The notes beneath the pieces are model-generated. The model ran no database searches. It was not told where the DNA came from and was given only the letters and a program-made list of their open reading frames with translations. A program made the position numbers and the translations under genes. From Tepidanaerobacteraceae bacterium (lineage in GTDB: Bacteria; Bacillota; Thermosediminibacteria; Thermosediminibacterales; Tepidanaerobacteraceae), in contig JANLFP010000017.1 in the NCBI GenBank assembly GCA_024655905.1, positions 1 to 32,164 of the forward strand: a stretch of DNA of 32,164 nt, read 5' to 3'. Shown one piece after another: positions 9,744 to 32,164 of this stretch. Numbering within the stretch: position 1 is the first letter of the stretch; each line of letters begins with the position of its first letter.

Positions 9744-10790
9744 ATGTCCGTTAAGAACAAAGAAAATCCGTCGGCTCTCATACCTCTCGGAGTTTTTCTG
9801 GCGCTTTTGCGTAGCGGGTATCTATTTCAATCTTAAAGGTGTGGATTTTGCATTTTACCAGCTCCCATCCCCCGTTGCGGCCATTGCTGGAATTATCATA
9901 GCGTTTATAATAGGCAGGGGCAGTATTGATGAAAAAATGGACACATTTGTAAAAGGCGTGGGAGAAAGCAATATTATTATCATGTGCATGATTTACCTTC
10001 TTGCGGGCGCATTCTCGACGGTTGCAAAGGCCATGGGCGGGGTCGACTCCACGGTTAACTTCGGGCTTTCAGTAATACCCGCCAGCCTGATATTGCCGGG
10101 GTTGTTCGTGATTGCGGCTTTTGTGGCTACTGCCATGGGAACATCCATGGGCACCATTGCCGCGGTTTGCCCTATAGCCGTAGAAATGGCGACAAAAGCG
10201 CAGCTTCCTCTGGCAGTGGCAGTGGGAGCAGTGGTGGGCGGAGCAATGTTCGGCGACAACCTTTCCATGATATCAGACACCACCATTGCGGCTACAAGAA
10301 CCCAGGGATGTGCCATGCGGGACAAATTCGCCATGAATTTTAAAATAGCACTTCCGGCAGCAATCATGACTGTAATAATCATGGCAATATTCGGTACAGG
10401 TGGCCAGGTGCCTTCCGGGCTGGAATACAATATTTTGAAAATAGTGCCTTATCTTGCTGTTTTAATTCTGGCACTGATAGGAATGAACGTTTTTGTAGTG
10501 CTTATAATCGGAACACTTTTGTCGGGCCTTATAGGCTTGCTTGGCGGCAGCTTCACCCTGATTGGTTTTACGCAAAAGATTTATGAAGGCTTCGGTTCAA
10601 TGCAGGAAATATTCATTCTCTCGCTGCTGATCGGAGGTCTTGCAGCTTTGATAGCAAGAGAAGGCGGCATAGACTATCTCCTGAATGTCATAAGCCGCAG
10701 AATAAAGAGCACAAGAGGCGCGGAGCTTGGTATCGGAGCGCTGGTGTCTGTGGCGGACATCTGCACCGCAAATAATACATCCAAAAAATA
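9744..10790 (+). pseudogene. NhaC-type Na+/H+ antiporter, frameshifted and truncated
   Basis: The start is ATG 9744 after AAAAAGGAGG (MSVKNKENPSALIPLGVF). The frame fails in a T run at 9805-9808; adding one T restores LALFCVAGIYFNLKGVDFAF and the rest. From there the protein is a clear NhaC-family membrane antiporter with about nine hydrophobic segments, including GTSMGTIAAVCPIAVEMA and GGAMFGDNLSMISDTTIAA. It ends at SVADICTANNT followed by SKK and a stop, where family members continue for roughly 100 residues. So there are two lesions, a one-base loss and a 3' deletion. Its original job, judging from the lyase remnant upstream, may have been transport linked to methionine or another amino acid. 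Confidence 0.9.
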
Positions 10791-21831: not shown

Positions 21832-21949
21832 GCAATGAATGTGGATTTATAAAATAATTGTGGCAACAGGTAAACTGAAGATTTATTATGGCATTTTATC
21901 TGAATAGTGAAAAAGGCTTACTTAAAAAACATTGTTCTACAAAGCCGAT

Positions 21950-22030
21950 CTTAAGAAATTATTAAGGTTTTTTTCACCGATTTATAACCAACAAATGATA
22001 TGCTGAAAAAAGAATTCAATATTAAATTTA
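21950..22030 (+). promoter_or_regulatory. Promoter region, copy A of a duplicated element
   Basis: Contains CTTAAGAAATTATTAAG (21950-21966): two TTAAG-type half sites 11 bases apart, as OmpR-family regulators bind. A -10-like TATGCT is at 21999-22004 with no good -35. The 81 bases align without gaps to 23350-23430 with about 12 differences. It drives the decayed cluster starting at 22107. The rest of the 21832-22106 gap shows only A/T-rich sequence. Confidence 0.65.
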
Positions 22031-23225: not shown

Positions 23226-23349
23226 AAGCCGCAAGGCGTACGGAACCGTCTACAGCCCTATTCATTCTAAATATTGTGGTGAAGATAGCTCAAAGTACAA
23301 AAATTTTAGTGCGTTCATGAACTGTTTCCTGACCACTTTTTATTTTGGT

Positions 23350-23430
23350 CTTAAGAAATTCTTAAGATTTTTCTCACCAATTTCTCACCAATAAATGGTA
23401 TACTAAAAAAGAATTCAAGATAAAATTTAA
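23350..23430 (+). promoter_or_regulatory. Promoter region, copy B, of the efflux operon
   Basis: Contains the perfect palindrome CTTAAGAAATTCTTAAG (23350-23366), which also gives direct TTAAG repeats 11 bases apart. TATACT at 23399-23404 is a good -10; the -35 position is poor, as in activator-dependent promoters. About 85% identical to 21950-22030 without gaps. It lies 26 bases before the start of the HlyD-like gene. Confidence 0.7.
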
Positions 23431-25842: not shown

Positions 25843-27027
25843 ATGGATATACTCCAGACGATAAAACTGGCCTTCAGAGGCATTATAGACAACAAGATGC
25901 GGTCCTTTCTAACTATGCTCGGCATTATAATAGGCGTCACCTCTGTCATAGCCCTGGTTTCCATAGGCCAGGGGACCACTGCAAAGGTGACCGAGCAGAT
26001 ACAGAGCATGGGGTCAAATCTTCTTACCGTGAACATAATGGGAAGGGGCGCCACCACGACTCTGAGCTACGACCAGGCCATGGAGTTCATGAACAGTTCG
26101 TATATAAGCGGCGTTGCACCGGTAATTTCTGATTCCGTCACGGTTGAGCACGGCAATGTAAACGAAGAAGACATCACGCTGCAGGGTGTAAACGAATATC
26201 TTCTGTCGGTCCGAAACTACAGCGTGGATAATGGAAGATTCTTTACAGCTCAGGAGATTCAGTCGCGGAAAAGGGTTGCCGTGCTGGGTTCCGAGATTGC
26301 AAGCAAACTGTTCGGGTTTGTGGATCCGGTTGGGCAGACGGTAAAGATTAAAGGCTATAATTTTGAAGTAATTGGTGTCATGAAATCTTCCAGCTCAATG
26401 ATGGGCTCGACGGACGAGCAGGTCTTCATCCCCATAACTCTTGCGGAAAGAATCCTGCAGTCGAGGGGAGTCAGGATGATATATATCCAGGCTTCCGACA
26501 AGGATGCCGTATCATCCGCAAAGACGGAGATATCAGCCAAACTCGACAAGATATTCAGGGTAAAGTCTGAAGACGATAATTTTTCTTACAGGATTTTTGA
26601 CCAGAGCGAGATGCTGGAGACTATAAATGAGACTTCAAAGACGCTGACCATGATGCTCGGAGGAATTGCGGCCATATCTCTCATTGTTGGAGGAATCGGA
26701 ATCATGAATATTATGCTGGTATCGGTCACTGAGCGCACGCGCGAAATAGGAATCAGGAAGGCACTTGGCGCAAGAAAGATAGACATATTGAACCAGTTTC
26801 TCATAGAATCCCTGGTTTTGAGCGGTATCGGCGGGATTATAGGAGTGATCTTTGGGTATGTCACAAGCTGGGGGCTGGGCAAGTTCATGAGTATGAGCAC
26901 AAAGACCACATTGCCCGTAGTAATAATAGCATTCAGCTTTTCTATATTTGTCGGGGTTTTCTTCGGCATCTATCCAGCAAATAAAGCCGGCAATTTAAAA
27001 CCCATAGATGCGCTGCGCTACGAATAG
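25843..27027 (+). CDS. MacB-type ABC transporter permease (FtsX fold)
   Basis: A 394-residue permease. An N-terminal membrane helix (about 20-43: RSFLTMLGIIIGVTSVIALV) is followed by a ~220-residue extracytoplasmic MacB_PCD domain and three C-terminal helices (LGGIAAISLIVGGIGIMNIMLVSV region, then ~320-345 and ~360-380). The cytosolic pattern TERTREIGIRKALGARKIDI between helices is the family coupling motif. With the HlyD-like adaptor it forms a Gram-positive MacAB-like exporter; typical substrates are peptides, antibiotics or signals, none identified here. Confidence 0.96.
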   Translation: MDILQTIKLAFRGIIDNKMRSFLTMLGIIIGVTSVIALVSIGQGTTAKVTEQIQSMGSNLLTVNIMGRGATTTLSYDQAMEFMNSSYISGVAPVISDSVTVEHGNVNEEDITLQGVNEYLLSVRNYSVDNGRFFTAQEIQSRKRVAVLGSEIASKLFGFVDPVGQTVKIKGYNFEVIGVMKSSSSMMGSTDEQVFIPITLAERILQSRGVRMIYIQASDKDAVSSAKTEISAKLDKIFRVKSEDDNFSYRIFDQSEMLETINETSKTLTMMLGGIAAISLIVGGIGIMNIMLVSVTERTREIGIRKALGARKIDILNQFLIESLVLSGIGGIIGVIFGYVTSWGLGKFMSMSTKTTLPVVIIAFSFSIFVGVFFGIYPANKAGNLKPIDALRYE

Positions 27028-27028
27028 A

Positions 27029-27065
27029 CAAAAGCCCGAACGTTAAAAAAATGTTCGGGCTTTTG
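27029..27065. terminator. Bidirectional terminator
   Basis: CAAAAGCCCGAAC (27029-27041) and GTTCGGGCTTTTG (27053-27065) form a perfect 13-bp stem flanked by A and T runs on both sides. It serves the efflux operon (+) and the UPF0016 gene (-), which end tail to tail. Confidence 0.92.
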
Positions 27066-27066
27066 C

Positions 27067-27372
27067 CTATCCCCTGCCCAGCTGACGAAGGGCGTCCGGC
27101 AGTGCCTCCATGAGCACAAAAATTCCAATGCCCACAAACAATATGCCGGCGATTAATTTGAGATATGCCGTGGGAATGTAACGGGACACCAGATTGCCGA
27201 AAAGGGCCCCTATGAGGGTGACCATTATGAGTGCCAGGGAAGCCCCCATGAATATTGGAATAGGCTTATTATACTGGGTTACCAGGGTAAAGACGGCGAG
27301 CTGGGTCTTGTCCCCCATTTCAGCAAGAAAGAGCATGCCGAAGGCCATGAAGAATAATTTCAAAAAGCTCAT
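27067..27372 (-). CDS. TMEM165/GDT1 (UPF0016) cation exporter, half-size
   Basis: A 101-residue membrane protein with three hydrophobic segments. The family motif E-x-G-D-K-T is present as LAEMGDKTQL (residues ~16-25). Bacterial half-size members work as dimers or pairs, each giving one motif copy; the family exports Mn2+ or exchanges Ca2+/H+. The ATG at 27372 follows GGAGGG on the minus strand. A yybP-ykoY manganese riboswitch upstream strongly supports manganese export. No second half-size gene is adjacent, so a homodimer is likely. Confidence 0.93.
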   Translation of the reverse strand: MSFLKLFFMAFGMLFLAEMGDKTQLAVFTLVTQYNKPIPIFMGASLALIMVTLIGALFGNLVSRYIPTAYLKLIAGILFVGIGIFVLMEALPDALRQLGRG

Positions 27373-29655: not shown

Positions 29656-31728
29656 TTGAAAAGCTATAAAAGCGACATGATAAGAAACGTAGGTTTGATT
29701 GCCCACAGTGGATCCGGAAAGACATCCCTGGCTGAAGCCATGCTCTACACATCCGGTGCCATAGATCGCCTTGGAAAAATTGATGAGGGGAATACGACCT
29801 GCGACTTCGACCCCGAGGAAATCAAGAGAAGGATATCCATTTCGACCGCATTTGCGCCCTGTGAGTGGAAAAATAATAAAATAAACATACTGGATACTCC
29901 CGGATATTTCGATTTTGTAGGTGAAGTAAAGAGCGCTATTCGCGTGGTGGAAAGCGGCATCATAGTGACGTGCGCTGTATCGGGAGTCGAGGTCGGTACG
30001 GAGCAGGTGAAAAAATATGCCGATGAAGCAGGATTGCCCCACATTTTTTTCATAAATAAAATGGATCGTGAGAATGCCAATTTCTATAAAGTGGTTGAAC
30101 AGATACGGCAGTTTTTCGGTCCCAAAGCAGTGCCGTTCCAGTTGCCCATAGGCGCAGAGGCCGGTTTCAAGGGCGTGATTGATATAGTGCATCAAAAGGC
30201 TTACACTTTTGAGGCAAAAGGCGCAAAAGAATGCCCGATACCCGATGAATTGAAGCCCGAGATGGAAAATTACCGTTCGATGCTGGTGGAAGCCGTGGCA
30301 GAAACAGATGACGATCTCCTCACCAAATATCTGGAAGGCGAAGAACTGGGCGAAGAAGAAATACAGAAAGGGCTTCGCAAGGGCGTGCTCAAAGGCGAGA
30401 TTTATCCAATACTCTGCGGTTCAGCCCTTACGAACAAGGGAATAAGCCTGTTGCTGGATACCATTTGCGATTACATGCCATCCCCCCAAGACAGGGCCGC
30501 TGAAAAGGGTGTAAACCCCGTTGCCAATGCGGAAGAAACCAGGGAATGCCGAGTGGATGCGCCGCTTTCGGCGCTGGTGTTCAAGACCATGGCGGATCCC
30601 TACGTGGGCAAATTGACCGTCTTTAAAGTTTTTTCAGGCAAAATTCAATCCGATTCAACGGTATATAACGCAACAAAAGGCGAGAGCGAGAAAATCGGCC
30701 AGCTCTATGTCATGAGAGGCAAGAAGCAGGAAAACGTGGCAGAAGTGGTGGCCGGCGACATCGCTGCAGTGGCCAAACTGCAATATACTTCCACCAACGA
30801 TACCCTGACGGATAGGGATCATCCTGTCATGCTTTCGGGCATAGAATTCCCGAAACCGGTGCTGGCGATGGCAGTGCAGCCCAAGTCCCAGGGTGATGAA
30901 GAAAAGATATCCGCAGGTCTCACGAGGCTCATGGAAGAAGACAGGACCTTTGAATTGATTAAAAACACCGAAACAGGACAGCTTCTCGTTTCCGGGATGG
31001 GTGAAATTCACCTTGAAGTGCTGGCGGGGAAACTTGCAAACAAATTCGGGACGGAAGTCGTTCTGGATATTCCTAAAGTTCCATATCGGGAGACCATAAG
31101 GACATCGGTAAAAGTGGAAGGCAAACACAAGAAGCAGAGCGGCGGGCGCGGCCAGTACGGGCATGTGTGGCTGGAACTTCAGCCTCTTGAGTCGGAAGAC
31201 GGTTTCGAGTTTGAAGACAAGATTTTCGGAGGCGCTGTTCCCAAGCAGTATATTCCCGCCGTGGAAAAAGGAATCAGGGAATCCCTCAAGTCCGGCGAAC
31301 TGGCCGGGTATCCGGTCGTGGGAGTGAAAGCCATCCTGTATGACGGTTCCTTCCATCCGGTGGATTCCTCGGAAATGGCATTCAAAATAGCAGCTTCCAT
31401 GGCCTTCAAGAAGGGCACCTCTCAGGCTAAGCCGGTGCTGCTGGAGCCAATAATGGATGTAGAAGTGGTGGTGCCCGAGAGCTACATGGGCGACATAATC
31501 GGCGATCTCAACAAGCGCAGGGGCAGGATAATGGGAATGGAGCCAAAAGACGGAATGCAGCATATAAAGGCACAGGCTCCCATGGCGGAGATGTTCAGAT
31601 ATGCCACCGACCTTCGTTCCATGACACAGGGCCGAGGTTCCTTCACTTCCAAATTCAGCCATTATGAAGAAGTTCCTGCACAGCTTGCAGAAAAAATAAT
31701 AGCGGAAGCAAATCAGGCTGCGGGTTGA
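29656..31728 (+). CDS. EF-G paralogue (FusA2-like translational GTPase)
   Basis: A 690-residue EF-G-type GTPase with all five domains. The P-loop is AHSGSGKTS (residues 16-24) rather than AHIDAGKTT of canonical EF-G. The G3 motif is DTPGYFDF where EF-G has DTPGHVDF, so the catalytic histidine is replaced by tyrosine. G4 is NKMD. Domain IV shows GGRGQYGHVWLEL, and domain V RRGRIMGMEP. This combination marks the FusA2-like paralogue group found beside true EF-G in many Firmicutes and thermophiles. Its role is not settled; slower GTP hydrolysis and a specialised ribosome function are plausible. TTG start after AAGGAGGAG. The canonical fusA next to tuf is presumably elsewhere. Confidence 0.93.
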   Translation: MKSYKSDMIRNVGLIAHSGSGKTSLAEAMLYTSGAIDRLGKIDEGNTTCDFDPEEIKRRISISTAFAPCEWKNNKINILDTPGYFDFVGEVKSAIRVVESGIIVTCAVSGVEVGTEQVKKYADEAGLPHIFFINKMDRENANFYKVVEQIRQFFGPKAVPFQLPIGAEAGFKGVIDIVHQKAYTFEAKGAKECPIPDELKPEMENYRSMLVEAVAETDDDLLTKYLEGEELGEEEIQKGLRKGVLKGEIYPILCGSALTNKGISLLLDTICDYMPSPQDRAAEKGVNPVANAEETRECRVDAPLSALVFKTMADPYVGKLTVFKVFSGKIQSDSTVYNATKGESEKIGQLYVMRGKKQENVAEVVAGDIAAVAKLQYTSTNDTLTDRDHPVMLSGIEFPKPVLAMAVQPKSQGDEEKISAGLTRLMEEDRTFELIKNTETGQLLVSGMGEIHLEVLAGKLANKFGTEVVLDIPKVPYRETIRTSVKVEGKHKKQSGGRGQYGHVWLELQPLESEDGFEFEDKIFGGAVPKQYIPAVEKGIRESLKSGELAGYPVVGVKAILYDGSFHPVDSSEMAFKIAASMAFKKGTSQAKPVLLEPIMDVEVVVPESYMGDIIGDLNKRRGRIMGMEPKDGMQHIKAQAPMAEMFRYATDLRSMTQGRGSFTSKFSHYEEVPAQLAEKIIAEANQAAG

Positions 31729-31813: not shown

Positions 31814-32068
31814 ATGATGAAAACTCCGAAACCTAAAGGGGTTCGAGAGGGAAATGCACGGGAGCGGGAGGAGAGCATTCGAAATAAAAAGGTTGACAGC
31901 CTGCTGGAAGATGAATTGATGGACGATACCATGTACGGCGAGATTATCCCCAGCCTTATGGGATGGACTTCTTCCGAGGAGCAGGAGGAAAGGGCAAATC
32001 ACCTCATAGAGATTTCAGAGGAATTGAAAGGCGGCAAAAAGAGGCGAGATAAAAAAGATAGGCGTTAA
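31814..32068 (+). CDS. Small charged protein, unknown function
   Basis: An 84-residue soluble protein rich in E, K and R. A basic N-terminus (PKPKGVREGNAREREESIRN), an acidic middle with LLEDELMDDTMYGEIIPSLMGW, a short helix EEQEERANHLIEISEEL and a basic tail (KGGKKRRDKKDRR). I do not recognise a family. GGAGGG precedes two ATG codons (31814 and 31817); either could be used. It follows the EF-G paralogue by 85 bases, and the Lys/Arg tail would suit nucleic acid or ribosome contact, which is only inference. Confidence 0.65.
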   Translation: MMKTPKPKGVREGNAREREESIRNKKVDSLLEDELMDDTMYGEIIPSLMGWTSSEEQEERANHLIEISEELKGGKKRRDKKDRR

Positions 32069-32114
32069 ACAGAGGGAGAAGCAAAGCCTCCCTCTAAATT
32101 TTATAAAACTATTT

Positions 32115-32164
32115 GAGTCAGGTGACGGTTCCTTGACTCATTTTGATGAGTCAAGGAACCGTCA
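32115..32164. repeat. Large perfect inverted repeat, family member 2, cut by window end
   Basis: TGACGGTTCCTTGACTCAT (32123-32141) and ATGAGTCAAGGAACCGTCA (32146-32164) are exact complements around a TTTG loop. GAGTCAGG (32115-32122) lies outside the left arm; its partner CCTGACTC would be just past the window. The inner sequence resembles the palindrome at 13166-13202. There is no T tract, so a mobile or REP-like repeat is more likely than a terminator. Confidence 0.85.

Follow-up and report, generated by a model that had tools for sequence, protein, structure and literature searches.

A probable RAYT-linked, REPIN-like repeat doublet upstream of ctsR in a Tepidanaerobacteraceae bacterium

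REPINs and GTAG-type REP sequences with their RAYT (TnpA-REP) were reportedly described by Bertels and Rainey in 2011, who are said to have regarded singlets as decayed doublets; RAYTs are likewise said to have been classified in a 2017 study. A second system, that of TIRYT genes with TIR repeats (TIRtrons), is set out by Di Nocera et al. (2013; PMC3733652), where the repeat carries the motif GGGGWSAS, and Quentin et al. (2018; PMC6006769) tie TIRYT to subclass 2.1 of TnpAY1. The word "Firmicutes" is absent from the main text of both papers. Searches of the openly licensed literature with the loop sequence on either strand returned no match on bacterial repeats by title, and term searches of the same literature returned no title on this repeat family. 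Here we describe an element at a contig end that is very probably a REPIN-like doublet of REP/TIR hairpin units, linked to RAYT transposases and lying between a terminator-like hairpin and ctsR with its upstream region. It appears to work like a REPIN and, as far as tested, has its nearest known counterpart in the TIR repeats that accompany TIRYT transposases.

The window, by which we mean the whole stretch of DNA that was analysed, is the entire contig C8 (32,164 bp) of a 3.195-Mb genome in 37 contigs, so that C8 has no bases beyond it. At its end lies a palindrome whose 19-bp arms (32123-32141 and 32146-32164) are 100% complementary around a 4-nt loop, TTTG, the right arm closing on the window's last base; a sequence-only reading had claimed just such a perfect 19-bp inverted repeat, and both arms and loop were recovered exactly. 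A scan of the whole window for hairpins (minimum 11 perfect pairs, loop of 3-8 nt) returned only this one. No second copy of the palindrome was found within the window, where a search allowing 3 mismatches in 18 matched just the two arms, so that the earlier label "copy 2" is true of the genome and not of the window.

In the complete stem of 31 bp, the left arm occupies 32111-32141 (+), of which 32123-32141 (19 bp) is paired inside the window, and it contains the left unit TGAGTCAGGTGACGGTTCCTTGACTCA (32114-32140, +), one mismatch away from its class pattern. The loop follows at 32142-32145 (+). After it the right arm begins, its initial 19 bases (32146-32164, -) being part of an inverted second unit that the contig end cuts. 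Upstream lie an elongation factor G-like gene (29656-31728, +) and a small ORF of 84 aa (31814-32068, +), which matches nothing in Pfam or NCBIfam at E≤0.001 and is matched in 24 of 41 genomes, the own genome counted. Between the small ORF and the element stands a hairpin that by eye resembles a terminator (AGAGGGAG / CTCCCTCT; 32071-32095, +), a stretch that is conserved in three relatives, G001, G005 and G009.

Another contig of the same assembly, C13, opens with the same palindrome, and over bases 1-33 it repeats the final 33 bases of the window save for the loop, which reads CAAA at the start of C13 and TTTG in the window. The loop is therefore inverted on one of the two contigs, through either an assembly ambiguity or a real inversion. 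From the left flank of the palindrome the sequence-only reading had predicted the bases after the window, and all eight are present as CCTGACTC at C13 bases 34-41; the departure from the complement that would have spoken against the prediction did not occur. It had also foreseen a 27-bp stem, with which the continuation agrees, though the joined C8-C13 palindrome proved longer, at 31 bp per arm around the 4-nt loop, before the next pair (T, C) fails to match. The complete second, inverted unit is seen at C13 16-42 (-), and the joined palindrome folds as DNA at -38.1 kcal/mol (z -15.5). As for the remark that the repeat has no T tract, this is true on the + strand, to which both neighbouring genes belong; on the - strand, TTTT begins two bases past the stem.

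C13 starts with ctsR, followed by mcsA, and upstream of ctsR we recognise what we take to be its promoter hexamers and a CtsR operator. Among the 12 relatives' loci examined, ctsR follows the homologue of the small ORF in 11, and the twelfth, L193, ends at a contig end; the DNA of G001, G005 and G009 aligns across the C8-C13 join. This synteny and the alignment of the relatives support a placement of C13 next to C8.

The element consists of two inverted 27-nt hairpin units of the pattern TGAGTCA-GGGGACGGTTC-NN-TGACTCA, which we call class A. At up to 2 mismatches, 38 such units occur in the own genome (G000), 28 in G005, 11 in G009 and 6 in G001; none were found in the remaining 22 of the 26 genomes of the class, and reversed-pattern controls gave 0 in every genome. 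Sites of GGGACGGTTC number 92 in the own genome versus 7 for the reversed control, and the 102 GACGGTTC sites in the fetched loci comprise 37 of class A, 25 of class B, 26 of class C and 14 unclassified. Classes A, B and C have the loop GGGGACGGTTC in common and differ in their stems, which are ATGTCA/TGACAT in class B and TGCGACA/TGTCGCA in class C. Class A doublets are represented by four close pairs in +/- order, the window's own among them. A palindromic GGGGACGGTTC doublet with a stem outside all three classes lies at C22:66028-66066 of the own genome.

The likeness to REPINs lies in hairpin units, inverted doublets and one transposase per repeat class; here, two inverted units form one hairpin with a 31-bp stem, and many class A copies are extragenic. 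In a test confined to loci of at least 2900 bases and, within them, to units no closer than 1200 bases to either end, only 4 of 28 testable class A units lay inside ORFs of at least 120 aa, though such ORFs cover 76% of those loci; the corresponding figures are 4 of 8 for class B and 1 of 6 for class C. The extragenic bias is thus shown for class A and not for class B, and the few testable units of B and C leave those classes undecided. Unlike GTAG-type REP sequences, these units have no conserved GTAG/GTGG at the hairpin foot, and their conserved tag stands between the arms: of 36 class A units, 1 has GT[AG]G immediately before its 5' arm; of 88 classified units, 2 have GTAG/GTGG in the 14 nt leading to that arm, and 0 have the complement close to the 3' arm. 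The element is not a canonical GTAG REP. We also considered the CGTC-tagged REP, which in PMC3733652 has an unpaired end tag, stems of 8-9 bp and no linked transposase; the reverse strand here does hold CGTC, but inside the loop segment and with linked transposases, and the candidate was set aside for its different structure.

Each of the two sister classes brackets a RAYT gene of the own genome. Inverted class B units flank C37:56836-57594 and inverted class C units flank C11:324396-325172, both open frames without internal stops. The two proteins share 39% identity, both match Y1_Tnp, and against the NCBIfam model for the REP-associated tyrosine transposase (cut-off 80 bits) C11 scores above the threshold (84.2) and C37 below it (61.1). 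A search of PDB profiles with the RAYT profile placed TnpArep 4er8 at the top (E=3.9e-5); weak matches to two Cas12X chains, 9ix6 and 8zqc (E 0.0013 and 0.0023), possibly arose by chance. TIRYT proteins of subclass 2.1 carry a C-terminal helix-turn-helix (Bac_DnaA_C, HTH_23 or HTH_28); of 10 proteins searched here, 4 match HTH_23 weakly (best E=0.004) and 3 match HTH_24, and Bac_DnaA_C and HTH_28 do not appear among 25 of the 34 matching families, the ones listed for these 10 proteins. An HUH/Y1 transposase and terminal hairpins recall IS200/IS605, from which the intact RAYTs differ in their 39% mutual identity and in the approximately 140 residues by which both extend beyond the Y1 domain. 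A separate IS200/IS605-type transposase, above its own cut-off, lies at C1:79079.

A Y1 transposase between inverted repeats, as in the TIRYT/TIR system, is found at both intact RAYT genes (C37 and C11), and copies elsewhere in the genome occur as singles and dimers, a further likeness. Set against the TIR motif GGGGWSAS, the GGGGACAG loop type fits and the GGGGACGG type, that of the C8 element, is one base off. In contrast to TIR repeats, many units here take the form of REP-like hairpins in which the loop is constant and the stem differs; the Y motif, YIH[NQ]NP, is unlike the one tabulated for subclass 2.1 in PMC6006769.

For class A itself, units at C34:9451-9477 (+) and 9888-9914 (-), approximately 410 bp apart, bracket a shortened RAYT remnant, in which the listed RAYT matches cover only the region of the HUH motif and whose tail resembles other RAYT ends by eye; further small RAYT fragments lie at C2:95961 and C6:5462. 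The earlier suggestion of a transposable element thus gains from the 38 dispersed units, from sister classes that bracket RAYT genes and from a RAYT remnant between units of class A; nothing in these observations speaks for the RNA-processing role suggested alongside it. In the relative G005 only RAYT fragments occur; the RAYT of G009 goes with another stem, and that of G001 with class C. We looked for a class A RAYT between the facing unit pairs G005 C1:217736/218999 and G009 C13:146505/147969, where the main ORFs encode two proteins, of 395 and 310 aa; judged by eye, neither is a RAYT and the longer one resembles a PLP enzyme. The four genomes that carry class A, of which G001 is only 68% complete, yielded no intact RAYT for it. 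Since these four genomes hold only a remnant, fragments or RAYTs with other stems, class A appears orphaned of its RAYT, with absence from an incomplete genome counting as weak evidence.

The association of these repeats with RAYT genes extends, with variants of the loop, to related loci, of which we compared the best 80 of at least 573, mostly from Bacillota by title and one from Candidatus Atribacteria. Within this set, GGGAC is inverted on both sides of the gene at 71 of 80 loci, and an inverted pair within 450 bp is missing at 9; the opposite arrangement occurs at 27 of 80, in part because the count also takes in GGGAC inside stems and doublets. At least one self-complementary unit passed the script's threshold at 60 of these best 80 loci, and such units lay on both sides at 36. 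Arms were complementary in 40.7% of the 285 units from the same loci, against 8.0% when arms were mixed between loci.

A tree of 94 RAYT proteins, of which 62 could be labelled by loop, shows 7 changes of loop type; in 500 shuffles the number averaged 28.4 and never fell below 23. In the other 32 rows either no unit passed the threshold or the loop was a different one, as with GGGGACGGGGTT in L207 and L209. There are 59 distinct stems among the 62, a count in which some entries are lengths of one stem, as arms were trimmed by script, and in which GGGACA-like stems recur. Loop type tracks the RAYT tree while stems vary. Loops of the GGGACAGG type occur at 17 of 63 labelled loci (16 of 62 without L177), and 13 of these 17 carry, by eye, the fourth G of GGGGWSAS.

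Core copies are also more numerous where a RAYT is present. Across 100 other genomes of the phylum, with RAYT presence defined by a match at E≤1e-20, the median is 9 copies in the 31 genomes with a RAYT and 1 in the 69 without (P=1.8e-8, kinship ignored), and at least 5 copies occur in 20 of 31 and 6 of 69, respectively. Exceptions run both ways: 11 of the 31 RAYT-bearing genomes have fewer than 5 copies, and many copies occur without a RAYT at that threshold in G117 (34), G027 (20) and G033, G066, G101 and G111 (7-8 each). The GGGGACGGTTC copies of G117 and G027 may represent further orphan repeat classes.

The bracketing of RAYT genes, the inverted GGGAC, a loop that follows the tree and stems that vary lead us to a REPIN-like repeat close to TIRYT/TIR, whose stem class is apparently orphaned. 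A bidirectional transcription terminator or an RNA-stability hairpin without mobile origin would account for an intergenic palindrome this long and perfect, for its fold of -38.1 kcal/mol and for the TTTT two bases past the stem on the - strand. This we consider very unlikely, since the + strand, that of both neighbouring genes, lacks a T tract, since G001, which lacks the element, still has the separate terminator-like hairpin that stands immediately before it here, and since 38 unit copies share the same loop while sister classes bracket transposase genes. A fold-back or assembly artefact is also very unlikely: the position exactly at the contig end and the conflicting loop orientations of C8 and C13 are what an artefact would produce, but like doublets lie inside a long contig (C11:63745 and C11:339834), and single class A units occupy the same place in G005 and G009. 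Least probable of all is a MITE or the IS end of an unrelated transposon, for example one of the DDE type, which would also be a short, dispersed inverted repeat, mostly outside ORFs as class A is; here, however, sister units bracket Y1/HUH genes, and similar units stand on both sides of the gene in 71 of the best 80 of at least 573 related loci.

Orthologous sites bear on how a REPIN-like doublet persists. At the window's site, G000 carries the doublet, G005 a single + unit and G009 a single - unit; G001 has no unit there, and other sequence stands instead. In the G001 spacer between the small ORF and ctsR (L186), a different imperfect palindrome, TGATTTTGGTGT...ACACCAGAATCA, takes the place of the REP doublet. 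Across 25 comparisons of orthologous class A pairs, in which each near-palindromic unit was assigned to its better-matching strand only, 11 showed the same orientation, 6 (at 3 sites) a flipped one, 5 a doublet against a single and 3 an apparently empty site. The 3 empty pairs are unreliable, as one of them, L326/L279, includes a gap of 513 bp and the remaining two are one site with a G005 unit beside it (L280). Among the class A orthologous sites compared, none was cleanly empty with recognisable insertion boundaries. Motifs of a partner's foot flank 17 of 65 singles versus 15 of 1077 random places; a direct foot lies upstream of 10 of the 65 and an inverted foot downstream of 7 (control 4 of 1077).

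The simplest reading of these site comparisons is that doublets would insert and later lose either half. Flipped units could instead stem from inversion in place, by recombination or hairpin processing, as the opposite-orientation singles of relatives at 3 shared sites (6 of the 25 comparisons) and the two loop orientations read for the window's element might suggest. We regard such inversion as possible but rather unlikely: the window's site shows the doublet itself alongside + and - singles in relatives, and partner feet are enriched at singles (17 of 65 versus 15 of 1077), though just 7 of these are inverted downstream and 10 are direct upstream.

For the REPIN-like doublet we propose that a TIRYT-type RAYT, an HUH/Y1 single-strand transposase, would recognise the hairpin when the DNA is single-stranded, by the constant loop GGGGACGGTTC jointly with the stem of its own class, and would copy or move doublets, of which single units would be decay products. 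A RAYT probably once spread the repeat through the genome, and the enzyme matching class A looks dead here. Because no intact RAYT for class A was found in its four genomes, its mobilisation by such an enzyme is proposed by analogy; RAYT mobilisation in general, specificity given by the stem and the immobility of class A are likewise what we infer from the patterns above.

These patterns could reflect a modular code in Bacillota, for and against which we find the case evenly balanced, in which the transposase reads a slowly changing loop (GGGGACGGTTC, GGGGACAGG, GGGGACGTTTC and kin) with its conserved part, and a freely exchangeable stem assigns each class to its RAYT. If this were true, several classes could coexist in one genome, and a class could outlive its dead transposase. 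Two or three repeat classes can be compared within one cell, which makes transposase specificity directly testable by stem exchange, and the apparently orphaned class A suggests that repeats can persist after loss of the enzyme. The 2018 survey (PMC6006769) detected nothing REP-like beside subclass 2.1 genes; here, genes apparently of the TIRYT type are partnered by a REP-like repeat in which the loop stays constant and the stem varies.

Elsewhere in the window, an imperfect 33-nt inverted repeat (79%) at 27012-27082, unrelated in sequence to the repeat at the end of C8, lies at the ends of the convergent ORFs 27027 (+) and 27067 (-) and looks terminator-like. A duplication of approximately 80 bp, 84-92% alike and 1.4 kb apart (21949-22030 and 23349-23429), possibly represents duplicated promoter regions.
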